A DNA stretch of 20,882 nucleotides, taken from a virus. The position numbers and the translations under genes were made by a program. How positions within the stretch are numbered: position 1 is the stretch's first letter; the number at the start of each line of letters is the position of its first letter. The DNA lies in IMG/VR virus record IMGVR_UViG_3300008625_001118, positions 1-20,882 of that record, one strand, 5' to 3'. The notes beneath the pieces are model-generated. The model was not told the DNA's origin. It saw nothing but the letters and a program-made list of their open reading frames with translations, and did no database searches. Of the stretch, positions 1 to 20,507 are shown piece after piece.

Positions 1-210
1 GAATGGACTGCTTCTGCAGATGATGACGCAAAAATAGGGTTTATTGCACAACATTTAACAGCAAGTGCACCAGAATTGGTAGATATGAGAGATTTAAGTG
101 GATTAAGTGTAGATGATGGTGGTATTACTGCATTACTTACAAAAGCATTTCAGGAAGTATCCTCATCTTTATCAGATTTGGGATCAAGGATAGCGGTATT
201 AGAATCTTAG
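1..210 (+). CDS. Tail spike/fibre C-terminus with S74-type intramolecular chaperone (5' partial)
   Basis: The reading frame is open from base 1 and ends at TAG 208-210, giving the last 69 residues of a longer protein. The visible part has the usual ending of the Peptidase_S74 intramolecular chaperone found on phage tail spikes and fibres: IGFIAQ at about residues 12-17, PELV at about 24-27, a short SVDDGG..TALLTKAF stretch, and a final amphipathic helix ending in RIAVLES. In the family this domain trimerises, helps the preceding beta-structured fibre to fold, and then cuts itself off. The catalytic Ser and Lys of that cleavage lie upstream of the window and cannot be checked. The position directly before a glycosyltransferase cassette makes this protein a plausible target of the modification enzymes. 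Which fibre or spike it belongs to cannot be said. Confidence 0.85.
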   Translation, partial: EWTASADDDAKIGFIAQHLTASAPELVDMRDLSGLSVDDGGITALLTKAFQEVSSSLSDLGSRIAVLES

Positions 211-229
211 TATAAAATAATAGGTATTA

Positions 230-2518
230 ATGGTTGTATTTGAACATAAAAAATTATTAATTAATTTAGACTTCAACGATTCGTGTCAATTAAACCTTAC
301 ATCTTTAACAGATGAAGATTTAGACATTAAGATTTATTATGGTAAAAATGGTGAAGAGTTATTAGAATATTCAATTGAATTATTAGGAAGAGATTCTACT
401 AGTTTTAATGGTTATCAAGTATATTTTATAGATTGGCATGTAGAAGTACATATAAATGATGAATTAGTTTTTTTCCATGACATAAATTTAGAAGATCAAG
501 ATGTACGAATTGTAATGGTATCTAAAAATTTAGGAGATTCAACTACGTGGATACCATATGTGGAACAATTTAGGCAAAAACATAAATGTAATATATATCT
601 TGTAACTGTAAATAAAGAACTTTTTGAAACTGAGTATCCATTTATTACTTTTTTAGATGAATATGATAGTTCTATAGATTATCATGCAACTTATTGGTTA
701 GGTGGCTTTGATATTCTTGATAAAAAGAAAACCCCTGGAAAACATCATCCTACACCCACATATTTAGGAGATATGCAAAAAATTGCTTCGGATATATTAG
801 GTCTTGAATATAAAGAAGAAAGAGCTAAACTTACAGTATATAAAGATTTTAAATTACCTTCTAAAAAACCATATGTTACAATAGCTCCATTTGCAACTGC
901 TAGAGCAAAGATGTGGAACTATAAAGGTAATGATGGTTGGCAAGAATTAGTTGATTATTTAAAAAATAAAGGTTATGATGTTGTAAATTGTTCAAGGGAA
1001 TCGGATGGAGAAAAATATTTTAAAATTCCAAAGGGAGTAATTACAAAACCAAAAGATACTTCGATAGAAGAGAGAGTATTTGATATAAAACATTCAGAAT
1101 TTTTTATAGGGGGGAGTTCAGGATTATATTGGGTAGCTCATTCTCTCGGAGTTTGGTCTATTATGATAACAGGACATACTCATAAATTTTTTGATGGAAA
1201 ATCAAAAACAGTAAGAGTTTCGTTAGAAGAAGATGAAAATGTTTGTACTGGATGTTGGCATAACGAAGAAATAGATTGGAATTTTGATAATTATTTCTGT
1301 CCTTTACAACAAGAAGATGATTTTTCAGGATTCCCAAACTTAGATTCAACTTCAAGAAAATGGGAATGTACTAAAAAAATAACAACGGATATGGTTATTG
1401 ATGCGATAAAAGAAGTTGAATCTAAAAAAAGTAAAATAGAAAAAGTAAAAGAAAATTATATTAGTTTAGGAATTAATATTGGACATGATGCAAGTGCTGC
1501 TTTATGTATTAATGGAGAATTAATTTCTAATATAGCAGAGGAACGATTATCAAGATCTAAACATGATAAATGTGAAAATGGACTACCTTTAGAATCTATG
1601 AAATATGTGTTAGGTTGTAATTCTATTGATTTACCACAAGTAAATTCAGTAGTTTATAATGGACCTGGAGAAGGACATGGAGTAGATTATGTTTTACAAC
1701 ATCAACAAAAATTTCATAAAATGGGAATTACAGATTTAAAATTAACATATGGATTACACCATTTAATGCATGCATATTCAACATATTATTCATTTCCTGG
1801 TAAGAAAGGAACTGCTGTAATAGTAGATAATGGTGGTGATATAGCATATCATTGGCATGTTAGTAGATTAGGACAAAAATATAATGTAGATAATACTAAC
1901 GCAGAAAATGCTTCAATATATAAAATAGAAAAAAATACATTTGAAACAGTTTATAAACACTACCATAATTATTTTCCAACAAACCCTGGTACTGATTATC
2001 TTGGATTCTCTTTAGGGGCTTTTTATGAAATGGCTTGTGGAGTAGTTGGTTTGGGAAAAGATGGATTTTCAGCAGGTAAATTAATGGGGCTGGCTTCATA
2101 TGGTAAAAAAGAAAATTTATTTGATAAGATGGGAAAGCCAATCCATAGGGATTTTATTCGAATAGATGAAAGTTTATATGGAGATTTCTATATTCCAAGA
2201 GATAAGGAGAATCAAAATTTAATGCAGTGGTATAAATATGATTTACGAGAAGAAGATTTCCAAACTCAGGCAGATTTTGCTTTACAAGTACAATTACAAT
2301 TTGAAAGAGCAATTTTATTTCTAATTAAAAAAGCAAATCTTTTAGCACCAAATGAAAATCTTTATTTAGCAGGTGGAAGTTTCCTAAATTCCACAGTAAA
2401 TCAAAAAATAGTTGATAGTGGGTTATTTGAGAATGTATATATAATACCAGCAGCAGATGATACTGGTATTTCAATAGGATGTGCATATTATGGGTATTGG
2501 AGAAATTTCCGTGAGTAA
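230..2518 (+). CDS. TibC-like heptosyltransferase fused to Kae1-like carbamoyltransferase domain
   Basis: This 762-residue protein has two enzymes in one chain. Residues ~1-400 resemble the TibC/BAHTCr O-heptosyltransferases that place heptose from ADP-heptose on Ser/Thr of autotransporters. Visible marks are LGDSTTWIPYVEQF (101-114, likely base D103), APFATARAKMWNY (219-231, K227 for nucleotide-sugar phosphate), GGSSGLYWVAHSLG (294-307) and four Cys (C339, C342, C357, C380) matching the family's metal finger. Residues ~408-762 are the N-terminal Kae1-like half of a NodU/TobZ O-carbamoyltransferase: GINIGHDASAAL (414-425), metal ligands H510 and H514 with D533, KLMGLASYG (617-625), LAGGSFLN (713-720) and DDTGISIG (743-750). 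The usual C-terminal YrdC-like half is absent; it is supplied two genes downstream. The start ATG 230 has only a weak TAGGT upstream. The next gene begins inside its last codons, suggesting translational coupling. The domain calls are firm; the acceptor is unknown. Confidence 0.87.
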   Translation: MVVFEHKKLLINLDFNDSCQLNLTSLTDEDLDIKIYYGKNGEELLEYSIELLGRDSTSFNGYQVYFIDWHVEVHINDELVFFHDINLEDQDVRIVMVSKNLGDSTTWIPYVEQFRQKHKCNIYLVTVNKELFETEYPFITFLDEYDSSIDYHATYWLGGFDILDKKKTPGKHHPTPTYLGDMQKIASDILGLEYKEERAKLTVYKDFKLPSKKPYVTIAPFATARAKMWNYKGNDGWQELVDYLKNKGYDVVNCSRESDGEKYFKIPKGVITKPKDTSIEERVFDIKHSEFFIGGSSGLYWVAHSLGVWSIMITGHTHKFFDGKSKTVRVSLEEDENVCTGCWHNEEIDWNFDNYFCPLQQEDDFSGFPNLDSTSRKWECTKKITTDMVIDAIKEVESKKSKIEKVKENYISLGINIGHDASAALCINGELISNIAEERLSRSKHDKCENGLPLESMKYVLGCNSIDLPQVNSVVYNGPGEGHGVDYVLQHQQKFHKMGITDLKLTYGLHHLMHAYSTYYSFPGKKGTAVIVDNGGDIAYHWHVSRLGQKYNVDNTNAENASIYKIEKNTFETVYKHYHNYFPTNPGTDYLGFSLGAFYEMACGVVGLGKDGFSAGKLMGLASYGKKENLFDKMGKPIHRDFIRIDESLYGDFYIPRDKENQNLMQWYKYDLREEDFQTQADFALQVQLQFERAILFLIKKANLLAPNENLYLAGGSFLNSTVNQKIVDSGLFENVYIIPAADDTGISIGCAYYGYWRNFRE
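2499..2503 (+). promoter_or_regulatory. Ribosome binding site GGAGA deciding a GTG start
   Basis: GGAGA lies seven bases before GTG 2511 and within the last codons of the preceding gene. It favours GTG 2511 over GTG 2481 and ATG 2490, which have no comparable site. It also removes an extra N-terminus that would not align with the family, whose first strand starts at SLGIHIGHD. Confidence 0.7.
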
Positions 2519-3512
2519 AACTTCATTAGGAATACATATTGGACATGATAGTGGGGTATCTTTAGTAAAAGATGGTGTATTAGTTAATAGTATATGTCAA
2601 GAAAGATTAAGTAGATTAAAGCATGATGGATTTGATCTTAAATTTCCAAAAAAAGCTTTAGATTATATACTTTCAACAACAAATACACAATTAGATAATA
2701 TAGATAATATAACATATTCAATATGTACCCAACATGAGTATGAAGAAGATTATAATGAGTTAAAAGAGAGCGTAAATTCAGTAGTACCAATTAAAAATTC
2801 AATTAAACATCATACTGCACATGTTATATCAACATATGACTTTTTTGGTTTAAAAGAAGAGGCTGTAGGTTTAGTAGTAGATATGGGCGGTAGTATTTTT
2901 TATAAAGATGGAGAAAAAAATAGGGTTGAAGCACATACTATATTTGATATAAATCAAACAGAACTAAAAACATTATATCAATATAAAACTCCGAAAATAT
3001 CAAATCCAATTTCAGATAATTTAAATACATTCTGTTCATTAGGAGCTTTTTATGAAAACGCTGGACTAAAATTAAACTTAGGTACTTTTAATACTTGTTC
3101 AGGAAAATTAATGGGATTAGCTGGATATGGAAATGAAAAAACAGTACAAAAACGTTGGCCAGAACCATTTATTAATATTCCAGAAGATTTAAATGGAGAA
3201 TTAACTTTAAAATTTAAAACTTGGGATTGGAATGATTTTGATTTTTCTAATATAAAAACACACAATGATATGGCAGATTTTAGTCTTAAAGTTCAAATGG
3301 AATTTGAAAATGCTATAATGTTTTTAGTTAAAAAAGCAAAATTTTTAAAAAATTGCGATACTTTAGTGTTGGCAGGTGGGTGTTTTTTAAATTCTATTGT
3401 AAATCAAAAAATAATTGATTCTGAAATTTTTAATAATATTTATATAATACCAGCAACAGACGATAGTGGTGTATCTATAGGTTGCGCGTTTTATGGTTAT
3501 AGGGAATTATAA
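2511..3512 (+). CDS. Stand-alone Kae1-like carbamoyltransferase domain (second copy)
   Basis: A 333-residue protein from GTG 2511, overlapping the previous gene by eight bases. It is only the Kae1-like transferase half of a NodU/TobZ-type O-carbamoyltransferase. Visible marks are SLGIHIGHDSGVSL (5-18), a metal site H100-x3-H104 with D124 in LVVDMGG, KLMGLAGYG near residue 200, LAGGCFLNS and a C-terminal DDSGVSIGCAFYGY. It clearly resembles the second half of the upstream protein along its full length, and the two look like tandem duplicates that have diverged, with differences concentrated in the middle where the acceptor should bind. In the family this domain moves the carbamoyl group from carbamoyl-adenylate to a sugar hydroxyl. 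It lacks the YrdC-like activating half, so it should need the protein encoded next (TAATG overlap). Acceptor specificity is not readable from sequence. Confidence 0.85.
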   Translation: MSKTSLGIHIGHDSGVSLVKDGVLVNSICQERLSRLKHDGFDLKFPKKALDYILSTTNTQLDNIDNITYSICTQHEYEEDYNELKESVNSVVPIKNSIKHHTAHVISTYDFFGLKEEAVGLVVDMGGSIFYKDGEKNRVEAHTIFDINQTELKTLYQYKTPKISNPISDNLNTFCSLGAFYENAGLKLNLGTFNTCSGKLMGLAGYGNEKTVQKRWPEPFINIPEDLNGELTLKFKTWDWNDFDFSNIKTHNDMADFSLKVQMEFENAIMFLVKKAKFLKNCDTLVLAGGCFLNSIVNQKIIDSEIFNNIYIIPATDDSGVSIGCAFYGYREL

Positions 3513-4990
3513 TGAAAAAAGATGTTTATTTAGGAAAAGAGTATAGTGATAAAGAAATTTTAGGTAAGATTACAGCTAATATTTCGAATATTGATTATAA
3601 AAAACTTCCTATGAATAAAATTATTGAAGAGACTGCTCGATTAATATATGAGCAAAATATAGTAGGTTGGTTCCAAGGAGCATCAGAAACAGGACCAAGG
3701 GCTCTTGGAAATCGTAGTATTTTAGCAGATGCTAGAAATCCTGATATGAAAGATAGGATAAATAGTTCTGTAAAACACAGAGAATGGTTTAGACCATTCG
3801 CTCCAAGTTGTTTGGAAGAAGAAGCACATAAATATTTTAGTCATACAACAAAAAGTCCTCATATGTTATTAATTTCAGATGTTAAAGAAGAATGGAAAAC
3901 GAGATTACCAGCTATTACTCATATTGATGGTACTGCAAGACTTCAAACTGTATCTAAAGATACAAATAAAAAATATTGGCAAGTTATAAAAGAATTTGAA
4001 AAACTTTCTGGTATTCCAGTGATTTTGAACACTTCTTTTAATGATAATGGAGAACCAATTGTAGAAGATCCAGGAAATGCTATAAATTGTTTTATAAGAA
4101 ATAATATGGATTATCTTGTAATAGGAAATTACCTTGTTAGTAAGAAAAAGAGAAATATTAATTATTTAAAACCTATAAATAAAAAACATCGTGTTGGAAT
4201 AGTATGTTTTAGTTATAATCGAGCAGATTATCTTGAAAAAACTATTGATAGTTTGATTAAAACTATGGATAAGAGAGATAAACTATTTTTATTAGAACAA
4301 TCTTCTGATCCAGAGGAAAAAAAGAAATCTTTAGAAATTATAAAAAAGGCAGGAGAAAAAATAGATGTTGTAATATATGATATGCCGTATAATCTTGGAT
4401 GTAGATTGGGAACTAATAGAGTTTGGGAAACTGGGTTTTTTGATGATTGTGAATATTATATGAATATAGATCATGATATGATAATTAAAGAACCACTAAC
4501 TACAGGTATAGAAAAATTAGATTCTTCACCATATATTTGGATGGTAACATATCATAATAGTCCAGAACATGATGTTATGAATGTAGATGGAGATTGGATA
4601 TTAAAAAGTCATACTCGTGGGTGTCATATGATGTTAAGGATAGAAGATTTTCTAAAAATGATGCCAATATGGATGCATCATAATGGTGGACACGATAATT
4701 TAAATTGGCATGGTGGGTTGGATTGGTATTTAATGGATTATGCAGAAGCAGCTCCTGGACCACACACTAAAGAAATAATAGCTGTATTACCAGGGGCATC
4801 AGAACATATTGGTAGAGAATCTGCATGGCAAGGTGAGTATGATGATGAATATAAAGAAGAAGATGAAAAAATGTTTTTAAAAGTAAGAAGTATGAAAGAA
4901 TTGTTAGAATATTATCGTCCCGATCATAGATATGATGGAGATGATGTTTTTTGGTATGAGAAAGAATATGCGGATATTATTAACGGGTAG
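3512..4990 (+). CDS. YrdC-like carbamoyltransferase C-domain fused to GT2 glycosyltransferase
   Basis: A 492-residue fusion starting in a TAATG overlap with the gene before, with AGGGA six bases upstream of the ATG. Residues ~33-212 are the C-terminal YrdC-like domain of NodU/TobZ carbamoyltransferases: GWFQGASETGPRALGNRSIL (52-71), KHREWFRPFAPS (88-99), HIDGTARLQTV (137-147), NTSFNDNGEPIV (173-184) and DYLVIGNYLVSKK at the end. In the family this part makes carbamoyl-adenylate from carbamoyl phosphate and ATP. Residues ~227-480 are a GT-A family 2 type glycosyltransferase starting RVGIVCFSYNRADYLEKTI, with the metal-binding DHD at 320-322 and a later HGGLDWYLMDY that may hold the catalytic base. 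The domain would complete the two Kae1-like proteins upstream. The GT2 sugar donor and acceptor are unknown. Confidence 0.85.
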   Translation: MKKDVYLGKEYSDKEILGKITANISNIDYKKLPMNKIIEETARLIYEQNIVGWFQGASETGPRALGNRSILADARNPDMKDRINSSVKHREWFRPFAPSCLEEEAHKYFSHTTKSPHMLLISDVKEEWKTRLPAITHIDGTARLQTVSKDTNKKYWQVIKEFEKLSGIPVILNTSFNDNGEPIVEDPGNAINCFIRNNMDYLVIGNYLVSKKKRNINYLKPINKKHRVGIVCFSYNRADYLEKTIDSLIKTMDKRDKLFLLEQSSDPEEKKKSLEIIKKAGEKIDVVIYDMPYNLGCRLGTNRVWETGFFDDCEYYMNIDHDMIIKEPLTTGIEKLDSSPYIWMVTYHNSPEHDVMNVDGDWILKSHTRGCHMMLRIEDFLKMMPIWMHHNGGHDNLNWHGGLDWYLMDYAEAAPGPHTKEIIAVLPGASEHIGRESAWQGEYDDEYKEEDEKMFLKVRSMKELLEYYRPDHRYDGDDVFWYEKEYADIING

Positions 4991-5843
4991 CGAAGGATTT
5001 ATAGGTAAAAACTTACAAGCAGCTTTATTAGATAATGGGGCTGCTTCTGTAACAACTATAGAACAAAATTATATGGATTATATAGGTTGGGAAACCAGTT
5101 TATTTAAGGCTTTAGATAAAATTGATATAATTTTTCATGTAGGTGCTATAACAGATACTATGGAAAAAGATGTTAATTTTATGATGAAATATAATTTTGA
5201 ATTTAGTAAAGTATTATTTGATTTAGCTGAAATTTCTAAAATACCAATAGTATATTCATCTTCAGCTGCTTGTTATGGAACAGAAACCGCTGGTATGCCT
5301 ACAAATTTATATGGTTGGAGTAAATATGTAACTGAGTGTTATGGAGTAGCAAAATGTACTAATTTTATTGCATTAAGATATTTTAATGTATATGGAGAAG
5401 GAGAAAGTCATAAAGGTAAAATGGCATCAGTAGCATATCAAGCTATGCTAAATGGACAGGATAAAAAAGTACTTTCACCATTAGCATTAAAAGAAAAGTT
5501 TAAATTATTTCCTAAAAAAGTTATTAAACAAGAAGATGGTTCAACTATTATTAAGCAACCAAAAAGAGATTTTGTATATATAAAGGATGTAGTAAGTGCT
5601 AATATACATTGTTTAGATAAAATAGAATCAGGAATATATGATGTTGGAACAGGAGAAAGTAATACTTTTGAAGAAGTTTTAAAAAATTTAAGTATAGGTT
5701 ATAATTATTATGAAGAATCTAAAATACCTACAGGTTATCAATTTAACACTAAATCAGACAAAACTAAGTGGTTACCAGATTGGAAACCAGAGTATAATTT
5801 AAAAACAGGATTAAAAGAATACAAAACTATTATAGGAGTATAA
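4968..5843 (+). CDS. hldD: HldD-like ADP-glycero-manno-heptose 6-epimerase
   Basis: A 291-residue extended short-chain dehydrogenase. ATG 4968 is chosen because the Rossmann strand MRILLTGSEGFIGKNL begins there; an open frame extends further upstream to 4932 but that adds no conserved residues. The gene overlaps the previous one by 23 bases. Visible marks are GSEGFIG for NAD(P) (7-13), IIFHVGAITDT (54-64), YSSSAACYG (96-104), catalytic Y115 and K119 in YGWSKY, and FNVYGEGESHKGKMASV (139-155), which is close to the HldD signature, then RDFVYIKDVV (200-209) and YDVGTGESNTF. HldD interconverts ADP-D-glycero- and ADP-L-glycero-D-manno-heptose. Its presence beside a TibC-like heptosyltransferase supports an ADP-heptose route. 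The phage has no other heptose-synthesis gene here, so it would draw on the host's ADP-heptose. A related sugar epimerase remains possible. Confidence 0.82.
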   Translation: MRILLTGSEGFIGKNLQAALLDNGAASVTTIEQNYMDYIGWETSLFKALDKIDIIFHVGAITDTMEKDVNFMMKYNFEFSKVLFDLAEISKIPIVYSSSAACYGTETAGMPTNLYGWSKYVTECYGVAKCTNFIALRYFNVYGEGESHKGKMASVAYQAMLNGQDKKVLSPLALKEKFKLFPKKVIKQEDGSTIIKQPKRDFVYIKDVVSANIHCLDKIESGIYDVGTGESNTFEEVLKNLSIGYNYYEESKIPTGYQFNTKSDKTKWLPDWKPEYNLKTGLKEYKTIIGV

Positions 5844-5844
5844 T

Positions 5845-6126
5845 ATGGCAAAAAAAGACAAAGTTCAATTTACTGAAGAAGAAGTTAATGAACTTAAAAC
5901 AATAAGTGCTACTTATGTTAATTTACAACAAACACTAGGGCAAATTGCAGTACAACGATTAATCTTACAACGACAGTTAGATGGATTAGATATTACTGAA
6001 CAAGAGACTCAAGATAGTTATGTTAAAAATCAACAAGAAGAGCAAAAATCTCTTGCAAAACTACAGGAAAAGTATGGTGAGGGTAGTTATGATACTAAAA
6101 CTAACGAATTTACGAAACAAAGTTAA
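5845..6126 (+). CDS. Small coiled-coil protein, function unknown
   Basis: A 93-residue acidic, Gln- and Glu-rich protein with AGGAG (5834-5838) seven bases before ATG 5845, one base after the stop of the epimerase gene. Residues ~8-75 look like one long alpha-helical coiled coil, without Pro and with few aromatics. It ends in KYGEGSYDTKTNEF, a tail similar to small proteins I recall from other marine T4-like phages. It could be a virion or assembly factor because it is followed by the sheath gene, but nothing in the sequence assigns a role. Confidence 0.7.
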   Translation: MAKKDKVQFTEEEVNELKTISATYVNLQQTLGQIAVQRLILQRQLDGLDITEQETQDSYVKNQQEEQKSLAKLQEKYGEGSYDTKTNEFTKQS

Positions 6127-6247
6127 TAAATTTGATCAAAACACATCTTTTTGAAAATTCTCTTTATATTTATAATTGAGTTTTTTTAAATAAAATTTAT
6201 AATCTCATTTTAAACTTTAATAACGTAAACAGATAAGGGAGACAATA
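6127..6247 (+). promoter_or_regulatory. Intergenic leader of the sheath gene with late-promoter-like motif and strong RBS
   Basis: A 121-base AT-rich gap. It holds ATATTTATAATTGA at 6166-6179, identical over 14 bases to the motif before the tail tube gene, and the strong ribosome site AAGGGAGA at 6235-6242, five bases before the sheath ATG. No -35 box at proper spacing is visible; TTGAAA at 6151 is only 14 bases before TATAAT. The absence of a -35 fits T4-type late promoters. About 70 bases of untranslated leader would result. No convincing terminator hairpin was found for the upstream operon. Confidence 0.5.
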
Positions 6248-8800
6248 ATGGCGGAAACAATTATTAGTCCTGGCGTTTTTACAGAAGAACGCGACTTATC
6301 ATTTTTACCTCAAGGAATTTCTGGCATTGGCGCAGCAATTGTTGGTCCTACAGAAAAAGGACCTGCATTTACACCAACTACTGTAACAAGTATTAGTGAA
6401 TTTAATAGAATTTTTGGTGATAATACAGAGGATAAAAATGAATATTTTGTACCTATAACTGCAAGGCAGTATTTTGAAGGTGGTGCAACTTCATTAACGG
6501 TTGTAAGAACATTACATTTAGATGGATATCATTATGGAGCTGGAGAAGCAATATATGTATATGCTTCTGGTAGCGACGGTGCTACTAATCAAGGGGTTGG
6601 CCAACAATCAGAATCAGGTAGTGCGTTGTTAGCAGTACTTGCTCCAGCAGAAGGAACACACGATGCTACTAACATTAGTTGGGCAACATCTACTCAATAT
6701 TCAGCTAGTTCATGGGATTTGAATATGTCATCTAGCAATTATTCACAAGTAGATGTAGGAATGTCGTTTGATTCATCTAGTGGAGAATATTTAGATAAGG
6801 TGTTACCTACAGATTCAAAAGCGATAACACGCGCTGGTGGAACAAGTGCACTTTTTTATGTACATTCTCATTTCAGAAAAACAAGTAATTTTAGAGCAAA
6901 TTTAACAGATGGACTACCCTCTAAGGCAGTATATGTTATAACAGGCTCTCTTAATTTTACAAGTGGTTCAACTTCATATGGTAATACAGGACAAGCAGCT
7001 GCTTGGACGGGTAATAAAGAAGCTTCTACTGCAAGAACACCATATATACAATCACAATTGGTTGGTTCAACAAGACAAGATTTATTTAGATGCTATACAA
7101 GAAGTGCAGGAACTAGAGCTAATAAAATATGTTATGTTGAAATAAATAACATTGTTCCTCCAGCAGATGTACCAGGATCAGATTATGGTACATTTACTGT
7201 AGTTGTTAAACAGTATGATGAAGTTGGTGATAAACAAGGACAGAAAATTGAAGAATTTCCTGATTGTAGTATGGATCCAAGTGCTACTAACTTTTTTGCA
7301 AGACGAATTGGAGATAAGTTTATGACAACGGATTCCAATGGAGATATAACAGAATATGGTGATTATCCTAATAAATCAGATTGGATAAGAGTTGGTGATT
7401 ATGTTGATATTAAAAATGGTATAGTAGCTAAATCATTAGTTCCAATGGGACATAGTGCAGTAAATTTACCAGTACAACCACCTGCCGTAGCAGGAGCAAC
7501 TGGACCATCAGGAACAGGTCATTCAATGTATTCAAATGTAAGTGCAGTAGTAACTGCAAGTATGACAACACATCAAAATGATAAACATGGTAATCTAAAA
7601 ATGGTACCAGAAGCATATGGATTTGATTTTAAAGATGAAGATAATAGAAACTTCTTAGCTCCGATACCTGCAAATGCTACAGGTGCTACATTGGGTGTTG
7701 GTGCTCAATTATCAATGAGTCTTGAAGATATGAAGGGTAATGCAAATACTGGTACTAATTTTAGTACAAGCACATATGCAGATGCAAGTACTCTAATAAC
7801 TCTTACTAATTCACATAAAAGTCAAAGGAAATTTAAAGTTCCTTTCCAATGGGGATTTGATGGAAACGATCCACATACAGCAATTAATACTGGATTGAAT
7901 ATATCAGCAACTAATACTCAAGGATTTAATATTAATAGTACTTCAGCAGCTGGATATACTGCGTATAAGAGAGCGGTTGATACTATTAAAGAACCAGAGA
8001 GAATAGATTTTAATCTATTGTTGATGCCTGGTGTAAATCATAATCAGCATTCATCTATTACCAATTATGCATTGTCAGCAGTTGAAGATAGAGCTGATGC
8101 ATTTTTTGTACTCGATCCAAGTGCTTATGGAGATTCAATTTCTACTACAAAGACAACTGTTAAACCATTAGATACAAATTATGCAGGTGTTTATTATCCT
8201 TGGGTTAAGGTAGTAGGTAATGTGAATGGTATGACTTGGGCGCCGCCTTCAGTAGTAATTGCTCATGCAATTGCTAATAATGATGCGGTAGCAAGTGAAT
8301 GGTTCGCACCAGCAGGGTTAAATCGTGGTGGATTAGGTATGGTTCAAGGTGCAGAGAAAAAGTTAAGAGGACCTGAAAGAGATGATCTATATGATGCTAG
8401 AATTAATCCTATAGCTCACTTTACAGGACAAGGATTTTCTGTATTTGGACAGAAAACATTACAAGGATTACCTTCAGCATTAGATAGAATTAATGTTCGT
8501 AGATTGTTGATTACAGTTAAGAAGTTTATTGCTTCTGCTTCAAGATTCTTAGTATTTGAACAAAATGATGTTCAGACAAGAAATAGATTCTTGAATATTG
8601 TAAATCCATATCTTGAATCAATTCAACAGGCTCGTGGGTTAACTTCTTTTAGAGTTGTTATGGATGATTCCAATAACACACCTGATGTGATTGATAGAAA
8701 TCGTCTTGTTGGACAAATTCTATTACAACCTACAAGAACTGCAGAATTTATAGTGTTAGATTTTGTAGTATTACCAACTGGAGCATCATTCCCTGAATAA
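6248..8800 (+). CDS. 18: Tail sheath protein (T4 gp18-like)
   Basis: An 850-residue contractile tail sheath subunit, which polymerises around the tail tube and shortens during DNA injection. The N-terminus has the family pattern ISPGVFTEERDLSFLP, GIGAAIVGPTEKGPAF and FGGATSLTVVRT-like sequence (here YFEGGATSLTVVRT). The C-terminus has the conserved packing domain: GQGFSVFGQKTL, INVRRLLITVKKFI, FEQNDVQTRNRFLNIVNPYL and a final ILLQPTRTAEFIVLDFVV. T4 gp18 is 659 residues, so about 190 residues are added, apparently in the Gly/Ser/Thr/Asn-rich middle (about 90-600), which in T4 forms the protruding surface domains. It has its own leader and a strong terminator after it, so it can be transcribed as a single high-level unit. 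Confidence 0.96.
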   Translation: MAETIISPGVFTEERDLSFLPQGISGIGAAIVGPTEKGPAFTPTTVTSISEFNRIFGDNTEDKNEYFVPITARQYFEGGATSLTVVRTLHLDGYHYGAGEAIYVYASGSDGATNQGVGQQSESGSALLAVLAPAEGTHDATNISWATSTQYSASSWDLNMSSSNYSQVDVGMSFDSSSGEYLDKVLPTDSKAITRAGGTSALFYVHSHFRKTSNFRANLTDGLPSKAVYVITGSLNFTSGSTSYGNTGQAAAWTGNKEASTARTPYIQSQLVGSTRQDLFRCYTRSAGTRANKICYVEINNIVPPADVPGSDYGTFTVVVKQYDEVGDKQGQKIEEFPDCSMDPSATNFFARRIGDKFMTTDSNGDITEYGDYPNKSDWIRVGDYVDIKNGIVAKSLVPMGHSAVNLPVQPPAVAGATGPSGTGHSMYSNVSAVVTASMTTHQNDKHGNLKMVPEAYGFDFKDEDNRNFLAPIPANATGATLGVGAQLSMSLEDMKGNANTGTNFSTSTYADASTLITLTNSHKSQRKFKVPFQWGFDGNDPHTAINTGLNISATNTQGFNINSTSAAGYTAYKRAVDTIKEPERIDFNLLLMPGVNHNQHSSITNYALSAVEDRADAFFVLDPSAYGDSISTTKTTVKPLDTNYAGVYYPWVKVVGNVNGMTWAPPSVVIAHAIANNDAVASEWFAPAGLNRGGLGMVQGAEKKLRGPERDDLYDARINPIAHFTGQGFSVFGQKTLQGLPSALDRINVRRLLITVKKFIASASRFLVFEQNDVQTRNRFLNIVNPYLESIQQARGLTSFRVVMDDSNNTPDVIDRNRLVGQILLQPTRTAEFIVLDFVVLPTGASFPE

Positions 8801-18606: not shown

Positions 18607-19239
18607 TTGAGTCAAGAAGCTTGGAACATATTTTCTAAAATTATAGATACCTATTCTTATGATGACCATCGTAGGTTAGCTATAGAAGAGTGTTATTATT
18701 CAAATAATACAACGTTTGAAACAGAAGTTTTATTATCAGATGAATCTTGTAAATCATTAATAGATTATACAAATAGATATGTAAATGATAAGATACTTGA
18801 TAGTGTAGATGGTTTACCTGATTGGCAGATAACCTACTTACAAAAAGATATAGAAAACTTATGTACTGTTTCAGAGATTAGAAATATAATAAAAATTGCG
18901 TATGATAAGTATCCAAATATTAGTAATGTAGAGTTTTTTGTTAGAAAGTATGGAGTAGGTGCGAGAGAAAAATTACCTTGGCATATTGATGATGCAGTTG
19001 TATCTTCTACAATACACTTGTCAAATTATTTTGAATATGATGGCGGCGACATTTTATTTATAGAAGATGAAGAGATAAAAAGAAAAAGTGAATTAAAAAA
19101 AGGATGTGGATTTTTTTTTGATGGAAATGTTATACATAGTGTAGAACCCATTACTACAGGTAATAGGTGGACTTTAATAGTATTTTTCTTTGCCAAACAT
19201 AGTGAATGGTCTAAAGAAGAAAATAAGGTTATATTTTGA
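18607..19239 (+). CDS. 2OG-Fe(II) oxygenase (prolyl-hydroxylase type)
   Basis: A 210-residue protein starting at TTG 18607 (no in-frame ATG or GTG is available nearby, and AAAGG lies ten bases before). Residues ~108-195 are a double-stranded beta-helix dioxygenase core: WHIDDA gives the iron ligands H126 and D128, YDGGDILFIED is the usual strand with the GG turn, GCGFFFDGNVIHSVEPI supplies the distal iron ligand H177, and TGNRWTLIVFF supplies R187, which binds the 2-oxoglutarate carboxylate. These enzymes hydroxylate a protein side chain or small molecule using oxygen and 2-oxoglutarate. T4-like marine phages often carry several, usually among virion genes; the substrate is unknown. It overlaps the next start by four bases (TTGA). 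Confidence 0.88.
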   Translation: MSQEAWNIFSKIIDTYSYDDHRRLAIEECYYSNNTTFETEVLLSDESCKSLIDYTNRYVNDKILDSVDGLPDWQITYLQKDIENLCTVSEIRNIIKIAYDKYPNISNVEFFVRKYGVGAREKLPWHIDDAVVSSTIHLSNYFEYDGGDILFIEDEEIKRKSELKKGCGFFFDGNVIHSVEPITTGNRWTLIVFFFAKHSEWSKEENKVIF

Positions 19240-20507
19240 ATAAAATACAAATAATAGAAACTAATAATATAGCAAATGAGTTATATTCTAAATTAGAAAA
19301 CAAAGAAGTTTTCGTACAGTTTATATATGATGATATTAATAGGCATAGTTTATTCAATCCAATTTCTACAGTATATTTAAATGATTTTGAAAATGAATAT
19401 TTGATTAATATTTCAAATAGTGATGCTAAAAAAGTAGATATTACAGATATAAATTTAAACTTTAAAAAAACGTATATATTTGGAGCAAAAGAAGCTCTTC
19501 ATCAAATTAAGTTACAAAATTATGTTGATCTACATTATTATTTACATTCGGTAAGTAATAGACATTATATAGTTGATGAATTATTTAATTTTGAAACACA
19601 TAAGTGGTATCAGATGAATTACTTTAATATTGAAGATTTAAATAAATATATTCCAATATTGAAACATCTTGAATATTGTAGGTTTGCATTTCAATATGCA
19701 GAATATATTCTAGATAATTTTAATTTTGATGAATATAATAATGAGATGATTGATAATTTAAATTTCATTGAATCAGGTGGATTATATACAGAAAATGGAT
19801 ATGAATATACTCAATATAATTTATTAACTTCTACAGGACGTCCTTCAAATAGTTTTGGGGGAATAAATTATGCGGCATTAAATAAAAAGGATGGAAGTAG
19901 GGAACGATTTGTTAGTAGATTTAAAGATGAAGGTATGCTAGTAGAATATGATTTTGATTCATACCATTTAAGATTAGTTGGAAATAAAATAGGATATGAT
20001 TTACCAAAAGAATCTGTACATAAATATTTTGCGCAACAGTATAATACAAATTATGAAGATTCTAAAAAGTTAAGTTTTAAATATCTATATGGTGGTATTA
20101 CAGATGAAATAGCAAAACAAATACCATATTTTGATGGAGTTAATCAGTATATTAATACACTTTGGAACACATATAATAAGGAAAAACAAGTGGTTTCCGA
20201 TATTTATAACAGAAGGTTTATTAAAAGCAATTTATTTGATATGAATCCAAATAAATTATTTAATTATATGATTCAGTTAATGGAAACTGAAAGAAATATG
20301 AGCTTGATAACAGCCTTAAAAGAAAGTTTACAGAATAAGAAAAGTAAATTGATATTGTATAATTATGATGCTTTTCTTTTTGATTATTGTAAAAAAGATG
20401 GTGAAAATATATTGAATGATATTAAAAAAATACTTGAGGTAGATGGTTATCCGACCAAAATTACAGCAGGAAAAAATTATCACACTATGGAACGTTATGA
20501 GATTTGA
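19236..20507 (+). CDS. Divergent family A DNA polymerase-like protein
   Basis: A 423-residue protein starting at TTG 19236 with AAGG at 19225-19228. Residues ~196-423 follow the order of family A (Pol I type) polymerase motifs. LLTSTGRPSN (196-205) matches the 'T.TGRLS' entry motif and is followed by NYAALN. EYDFDSYHLRL (237-247) matches motif A with catalytic D239 kept but the E of 'SQIELR' replaced by H244. K277, F281 and Y285-G286 match motif B, with the usual Arg replaced by Y273. LYNYDAFLFDY (374-384) matches motif C with D378 kept, but HDE is changed to YDA. Residues ~1-170 could be a degenerate exonuclease-like domain without its acidic residues. No 5'-nuclease is present. It lies among late tail genes, far from a replication module, so it may be an active repair-type enzyme or a repurposed fold. 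Confidence 0.72.
   Translation: MNKIQIIETNNIANELYSKLENKEVFVQFIYDDINRHSLFNPISTVYLNDFENEYLINISNSDAKKVDITDINLNFKKTYIFGAKEALHQIKLQNYVDLHYYLHSVSNRHYIVDELFNFETHKWYQMNYFNIEDLNKYIPILKHLEYCRFAFQYAEYILDNFNFDEYNNEMIDNLNFIESGGLYTENGYEYTQYNLLTSTGRPSNSFGGINYAALNKKDGSRERFVSRFKDEGMLVEYDFDSYHLRLVGNKIGYDLPKESVHKYFAQQYNTNYEDSKKLSFKYLYGGITDEIAKQIPYFDGVNQYINTLWNTYNKEKQVVSDIYNRRFIKSNLFDMNPNKLFNYMIQLMETERNMSLITALKESLQNKKSKLILYNYDAFLFDYCKKDGENILNDIKKILEVDGYPTKITAGKNYHTMERYEI

Follow-up and report, generated by a model that had tools for sequence, protein, structure and literature searches.

A phage tail-region cassette predicted to O-heptosylate collagen-like fibres, and the pairing of TibC-type enzymes with Gly-X-Y proteins

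The subject of this study is a four-gene cassette in a 20.9-kb virus record (IMG/VR IMGVR_UViG_3300008625_001118; 20,882 nucleotides, hereafter the window). The record is a fragment of the genome of a marine, T4-like phage, as judged from its genes for the tail sheath, the baseplate hub and further tail proteins. The cassette is embedded among the tail genes, with a fibre gene upstream and the tail sheath gene downstream, and comprises four plus-strand open reading frames (ORFs; 230-2518, 2481-3512, 3512-4990 and 4932-5843), each of which overlaps the next (Table 1). We used computation to establish the enzyme families, key residues, fold and gene order of the cassette, and the linkage of its first enzyme, a relative of the heptosyltransferase TibC, to genes for collagen-like proteins in phages and bacteria. 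This family-wide link between TibC-type enzymes and Gly-X-Y proteins is firmer than our reading of the window itself, to which we assign a probability of about 0.62: that the cassette O-heptosylates the phage's own collagen-like tail fibres, the acceptor being deduced from linkage, and that the glycan is then extended and carbamoylated.

Table 1. Features of the cassette and of the adjoining tail genes, in window coordinates
Feature	Position	Strand	Evidence
Collagen-like tail fibre, C-terminal end with S74 chaperone domain	1..210	+	PHROG tail fibre matches for 1-207
TibC-like O-heptosyltransferase domain, residues 1-401 of the 762-aa ORF1 protein	230..1432	+	TIGR04414, 4rap, structure model
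Kae1-like N-half of NodU/TobZ-type O-carbamoyltransferase, fused to the TibC domain	1433..2518	+	PF02543 3e-24; phrog_1601 3-322
Second, free-standing Kae1-like carbamoyltransferase half (ORF2)	2481..3512	+	PF02543 2e-27
YrdC-like C-half of carbamoyltransferase (ORF3)	3512..4159	+	PF16861 1.4e-73, full length; 7xb6 1e-56, TobZ, GdmN
Probable GT-A (GT2-like) domain, fused to the carbamoyltransferase C-half	4160..4990	+	PF00535 0.0014, under cut-off
HldD-like (ADP-glycero-manno-heptose 6-epimerase-like) gene, ORF4	4932..5843	+	TIGR02197 184 bits; 1eq2, 2x6t, 4ej0, 3sxp
Small conserved tail-module protein, in the interval between cassette and sheath	5845..6126	+	Kept in L337, L338, L339, L343, L344
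Tail sheath protein	6248..8800	+	tblastn against annotated sheaths of Mel-JY01 and Flavobacterium phage immuto

The first gene encodes a TibC-like domain

The N-terminal part of the ORF1 protein (residues 11-396) matches TIGR04414 (hepto_Aah_TibC) with 213.5 bits, above the curated cut-off of 200, and the TibC structure 4rap at 4e-27; phage relatives of the domain reach TIGR04414 scores of up to 347 bits. Using the residue roles given in the TibC structure paper (PMC4358343), we find that D103 aligns with the catalytic base Asp110, and T223, K227, R282 and W301 with the donor-contact residues Thr226, Lys230, Arg286 and Trp305. Four cysteines (C339, C342, C357 and C380) form the iron finger, and S296 occupies the position that sets donor stereoselectivity; on this basis the enzyme would be predicted to take both ADP-D,D- and ADP-L,D-heptose, like AAH. 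Among 56 non-redundant phage domains the catalytic Asp, the sugar-binding Trp and iron-finger cysteines 1, 2 and 4 are invariant, and all four cysteines are invariant in 40 of 40 aligned phage domains. The Arg286 position, although occupied by R282 in the window, is kept in just 13 of the 56.

The predicted structure of residues 1-401 (predicted local distance difference test score, pLDDT, 88.8) superimposes on TibC with a Z score of 40.8; 362 residues align at a root-mean-square deviation of 2.1, and the match takes in the N-terminal barrel. The next-best folds are GT9 enzymes, among them lipopolysaccharide (LPS) heptosyltransferases, which align with Z scores of about 19-22 over the catalytic part only. 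An initial annotation, made from the letters of the window, had called this domain a TibC-like heptosyltransferase while allowing that profile searches might assign it to an unrelated GT-B family; profile, active-site residues, iron finger and fold all agree with the former.

Collagen-like fibre genes precede the cassette

A sister contig (L003) is identical to the window across 11.4 kb and extends 3.4 kb further upstream, where it carries three tandem collagen-like fibre genes with Gly-X-Y stretches and S74 ends directly before the cassette. The Collagen profile scores above cut-off in all three. The third gene (L003:2238-3581) is the complete form of the fibre gene whose end opens the window, and its product matches both PF01391 (Collagen, 34.1 bits) and PF13884 (S74, 23.0 bits) above cut-off; on its own, the S74 end inside the window (1-207) scores under the profile cut-off. 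The initial annotation had described this end as that of a tail spike, which the phage would decorate. The S74 end is borne out by the sister contig, as is the link to a tail fibre gene. Because the full protein is collagen-like with an S74 chaperone end, we refer to a fibre and not to a spike, and the likely acceptor is its Gly-X-Y part rather than a spike head.

A gene at 18607-19239 of the window encodes a Fe(II)/2-oxoglutarate oxygenase-like protein, which matches the PKHD family at 6.7e-9 (under cut-off), PiuC weakly, and a procollagen lysyl hydroxylase/glycosyltransferase with an E-value of 0.02. Collagen-like fibres could be a substrate of this protein.

TibC-type enzymes reside beside collagen-like genes in phages

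Single-protein scans of viral_contigs with the TibC domain or the carbamoyltransferase C-half of the window returned the sister contig alone, and an alignment query was needed to reach relatives. When scanned with an alignment of five phage TibC-like domains, viral_contigs showed relatives at 579 loci at least, counted without dereplication; 80 of these loci were retained for analysis. Loci of at least 17 kb were considered well flanked, and the neighbour sought, at a distance of up to 10 kb, was a Ser/Thr-rich Gly-X-Y gene. Such a gene is present at 34 of 39 well-flanked TibC loci or, after dereplication at 80% identity, at 22 of 27, and 16 of 57 collagen-like neighbours lie no more than 200 bases from the TibC gene. 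No such neighbour was found at any of 80 viral loci drawn at random, 31 of which measured at least 9 kb, or at any of 47 loci, each 17 kb or longer, that encode a phage carbamoyltransferase. In the pooled triplets, X is Thr or Ser in 85% and Y is Ser, Thr or Asn in about 90%; the repeat proteins examined match collagen and tail-fibre families.

A DNA pattern for six Ser/Thr-rich triplets occurs in 25 of 28 whole TibC records versus 0 of 14 random long records. In the reverse direction, 20 of 50 viral records chosen for their repeats contain a TIGR04414 match (19 above the curated cut-off), as compared with 0 of 44 random records. Given the random loci, the matched carbamoyltransferase loci, the record patterns, the reverse search and the bacterial cases described below, we judge it unlikely that chance or a bias in phage type lies behind the collagen link. 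Conservation of the linkage between fibre gene and TibC domain, which the initial annotation had proposed to look for, is evident at the same locus of a diverged relative (L343) and across dozens of other phages; the isolate Mel-JY01 also has the pairing of enzyme and Gly-X-Y fibre. Homologous cassettes located mostly away from tail spike genes had been the counter-prediction of that annotation, and the homologues lie mostly beside fibre-like genes.

The autotransporter target repeat TIGR04415 was found in 0 of 48 TibC phage records, including the 19-kb sister contig, and an autotransporter acceptor in these phages is therefore unsupported. The search was positive for E. coli and for 18 of 20 collagen-negative bacterial genomes. 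One public phage protein is named 'Glycosyltransferase Aah/TibC' in UniProt tables.

Bacterial relatives and phylogeny

From bacterial genomes scanned with the alignment of phage domains, 80 relatives were kept, and TIGR04415 was searched in 29 genomes. It is found in none of the nine genomes that have a Ser/Thr-rich Gly-X-Y gene at the TibC locus, versus 18 of the 20 others. At several collagen-linked loci, a TibC-like enzyme forms a small gene pair with an adjoining exported or lipoprotein-like GTSGTSG-repeat protein. Such pairs were seen in Methylomicrobium, Methylobacter and Acidiferrobacterales (Methylococcaceae and others), with no phage signs among the neighbouring genes looked at. Exported or lipoprotein-like Gly-Thr/Ser repeat proteins near a TibC-like enzyme were observed at L356:9695-11765 (Methylomicrobium sp. 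RS1, the simplest pair), L357:8761-10978, L373:8948-11101, L375:8572-11095, L347:10001-11920 and L385:3596-5175.

In a quick maximum-likelihood tree, built without an outgroup, the autotransporter-type enzymes and TibC form one clade of 20 members with a support of 100. All collagen-linked enzymes fall outside it, as does the window enzyme, which forms a long branch. A ring-shaped dodecamer is one trait of the TibC/AAH family. The phage enzymes resemble TibC and AAH (BAHT; TIGR04414; PMC4358343) in their N-terminal barrel fold, catalytic Asp, donor residues and four-cysteine iron finger, but differ in that they are collagen-linked, lack TIGR04415 target repeats and lie outside the autotransporter clade. 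They also differ in being often fused to a GT4 domain, an FkbM methyltransferase or, in the window, half of a carbamoyltransferase.

The carbamoyltransferase, GT2-like and HldD-like parts

The C-terminal part of the ORF1 protein and the ORF2 protein both match Carbam_trans_N (PF02543) above cut-off, and ORF3 matches Carbam_trans_C (PF16861) above cut-off, in keeping with the initial description of four overlapping genes with two Kae1-like domains and one YrdC-like domain. When aligned to phrog_1601, a single-chain phage 'Nol-like carbamoyltransferase', ORF1 and ORF2 each correspond to residues 3-322 and ORF3 to residues 328-527, from which it follows that the enzyme is cut in two and that its N-half is present twice. 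The split lies at about position 325 of phrog_1601, is identical in L343, and leaves the halves on separate chains. The Kae1-like half of ORF1 carries the HHxxH and PAADDTGISIGCA motifs. ORF2, which starts at a GTG or at an ATG at 2490, is about 40% identical (41%) to this half and, since L343 has no counterpart, is probably a duplication. Its metal-site motif is intact, and the two N-halves would share a single C-half. NodU, TobZ, GdmN and phrog_1601 likewise have Kae1-like and C-terminal halves with these motifs; the window enzyme differs from them in being divided between genes, in its doubled N-half, and in the fusion of one N-half copy to the heptosyltransferase and of the C-half to the GT2-like domain.

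The GT2-like domain matches PF00535 with 19.1 bits (cut-off 23.3), contains a DxD-like motif (NIDHDM) and has an 80% identical counterpart in L343. Because a phage scan gave no match and the structure model was unusable (pLDDT 38), the label GT2 goes back to this motif and to the Pfam score under threshold.

For ORF4, which was first annotated as an HldD-like epimerase, the top family is indeed the ADP-heptose 6-epimerase TIGR02197, but its 184.4 bits fall short of the cut-off of 274.6. The four best solved structures (1eq2, 2x6t, 4ej0 and 3sxp) are all HldD enzymes. The protein contains the motifs GSEGFIG and SSAA as well as the catalytic YxxxK (YGWSK at 127) and the Lys of HKGxMAS (HKGKMAS at 160), the last two also by alignment to 1eq2. 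The true start of ORF4 is likely at 4968.

Supply of the heptose donor

An HldD-like gene adjoins the TibC domain in the window, L343 and L008. HldE-like kinase and adenylyltransferase genes adjoin it in L008, L062, L069, L073 and L094, and a kinase gene in L028. Scores above cut-off were obtained for HldD in the L026 record, for an HldE adenylyltransferase in the L037 record and for GmhA in the huge phage LR756504. As most TibC phages show no heptose genes, ADP-heptose is probably supplied by the hosts. A fully phage-encoded heptose route in the window is unsupported, the HldD-like gene standing alone in this fragment. In another phage (L008:2381-8810), genes resembling those for heptose kinase, adenylyltransferase, cupin, FkbM methyltransferase and HldD are adjacent to one another and to a fusion of methyltransferase, GT4 and TibC domains.

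Relatives of the cassette and neighbouring genes

Contig L343, whose tail sheath is 61% identical to that of the window, carries in order three collagen-like fibres, a TibC domain with an N-half, a C-half with a GT2-like domain, an HldD-like gene, the small tail-module protein and the sheath; it has a single N-half versus two in the window. In L338 (contig IMGVR_UViG_3300010883_000885), with a sheath 81% identical, the cassette is missing and other genes occupy its site. The presence of the cassette in L343 and of other genes in L338 indicates an exchangeable tail-region module. The small protein keeps its position in relatives with or without the cassette. Shortly upstream of the L338 sheath (4426-8645) lie shikimate-pathway genes, namely chorismate mutase/DAHP synthase, a weak partial match to EPSP synthase, chorismate synthase and a fusion of shikimate kinase and dehydroquinate synthase; chimerism of this contig is possible.

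Carbamoyltransferase genes occur at just 3 of the 80 kept TibC loci, one being the sister contig of the window, and carbamoylation is on this count a lineage-specific addition.

The nearest tail sheaths by tblastn are those of Mel-JY01 (41% identity) and Flavobacterium phage immuto (36%); Pelagibacter as host is unsupported. The late-promoter pattern TATAAATA has 12 matches versus 7.8 expected, which is uninformative. A 423-aa protein encoded at 19236-20507 has no sequence match in Pfam, PHROG, NCBIfam or the Protein Data Bank (PDB); by eye, its TGRPSN...DFDSYHLRL segments are reminiscent of family A DNA polymerase motif regions.

Proposed function and alternatives

We propose that the TibC-like domain would transfer heptose from ADP-heptose, the presumed donor, to side chains of Ser and Thr within the Gly-X-Y stretches of those fibres whose genes lie immediately upstream, that the GT2-like domain may add one more sugar, and that the split NodU/TobZ-type carbamoyltransferase, with one N-half fused to the heptosyltransferase, would carbamoylate the glycan. 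These steps may be timed to virion assembly. Potential benefits would include fibre stiffness or solubility, masking, or an interplay with receptors.

For the family as a whole, we are inclined, at slightly better than even odds, towards a second and widespread TibC-type branch specialised in collagen-like Gly-(Ser/Thr)-X repeats. In phages it would hyper-glycosylate tail fibres; in some bacteria its substrates would be small exported Gly-Thr-Ser proteins. The novelty would lie in the acceptor class and not in the chemistry, and the system would parallel collagen glycosylation, in bacteria and viruses and with heptose as the sugar.

Several points weigh against fibre O-heptosylation by the cassette. 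Linkage does not prove substrate. The fibre region is in any case the usual place of phage glycan genes. Among the 50 repeat-fibre records, 30 have no TIGR04414 match, some of these being fragments. The Gly-X-Y parts of the L003 fibres hold 11-21 Thr and 1-5 Ser per 34-51 triplets, and those of the L343 fibres 8-12 Thr and 1-3 Ser; with moderate Thr and little Ser, they differ from the Gly-(T/S)-(S/N) pattern that the fibres of most relatives show. In TibA, TibC is reported to have modified Ser but not Thr (PMC4358343). Given its long branch, the window enzyme may have changed its acceptor. The scanned HldD- and HldE-like genes are best matches to heptose families but score under the curated cut-offs, and recognisable heptose genes are present in a minority of TibC phages only.

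The main rival, which we nevertheless regard as unlikely, is that in infected cells the cassette alters a host surface glycan (O-chain or core of the LPS), perhaps as a block to superinfection. Its nearness to fibre genes would then reflect no more than a plastic host-recognition region in which genes of this kind gather. Modification of the host surface is the published view of glycosyltransferases in the pelagimyophage host recognition cluster (PMC7029224), and a huge-phage heptosyltransferase has been interpreted as an LPS enzyme (PMC10747093). The glycan roles known for GT9 enzymes, HldD and NodU-type carbamoyltransferases, together with the unrelated metabolic genes at the same site in L338, also fit. 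However, the window domain possesses the TibC N-terminal barrel and iron finger, whereas the LPS heptosyltransferases compared match its catalytic part only. A host glycan as target also leaves unexplained the Gly-X-Y pairing, which extends to the small bacterial gene pairs and is absent from the 47 phage carbamoyltransferase loci.

Ranking behind it, and likewise improbable, is O-heptosylation of a protein site outside the collagen-like stretch, which could lie elsewhere on the fibre, on another virion protein or on a protein of the host surface. The Ser-poor Gly-X-Y stretches of the window lineage and the divergence of its enzyme would be accommodated in this way, and the acceptors known for TibC are beta-helical rather than collagen-like (PMC4358343). 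Against it stand the Gly-X-Y protein as the constant neighbour in phages and bacteria, the three collagen-like fibres directly before the gene in both the window lineage and L343, and the lack of the autotransporter repeat in the 48 phage records. It is very unlikely that the acceptor is a protein but the donor another ADP- or UDP-sugar, made with the HldD-like gene: the sub-threshold HldD- and HldE-like scores and the missing heptose genes of most TibC phages would suit such a donor, but the window protein retains all four TibC donor contacts, the best-matching families are HldD and HldE each time, GmhA scores above cut-off in one phage, and ADP-heptose could come from hosts.

Relation to known systems and implications

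Taken singly, the elements are known: the enzyme family, the glycosylation of phage virions and phage carbamoyltransferases. In mycobacteriophages, virions are glycosylated by phage-encoded glycosyltransferases whose enzyme family and sugar, as far as is known, differ from TibC and heptose. Capsid glycosylation has been suggested for Maravista (PMC11256854). These phages resemble our proposal in that the phage encodes sugar transfer to its own structural proteins, but the target is a protein other than the fibres of the window. The pelagimyophage host recognition cluster (PMC7029224) likewise brings together glycosyltransferases, sugar genes and fibre genes in T4-like marine phages, and collagen repeats were noted there in unidentified structural proteins; its genes, in contrast, were interpreted as modifiers of the host O-chain. 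The text of that paper contains 'heptos' once, where the title of an rfaE paper is cited; carbamoyltransferase was not found in it. A pairing of TibC-type enzymes with collagen-like proteins in phages or bacteria was not found described in the full-text literature, a scope outside which most subscription journals fall.

If fibre O-heptosylation is correct, hundreds of environmental phage contigs, including those of huge phages, would encode enzymes for a heptose-based glycan coating of their collagen-like tail fibres, and fibre-region glycosyltransferases so far viewed as modifiers of the host surface would gain a specific virion target. A family known from virulence autotransporters would then have a second acceptor class, and the combination of a Gly-Thr-Ser repeat protein with a single enzyme would offer a simple system for repetitive protein O-glycosylation.

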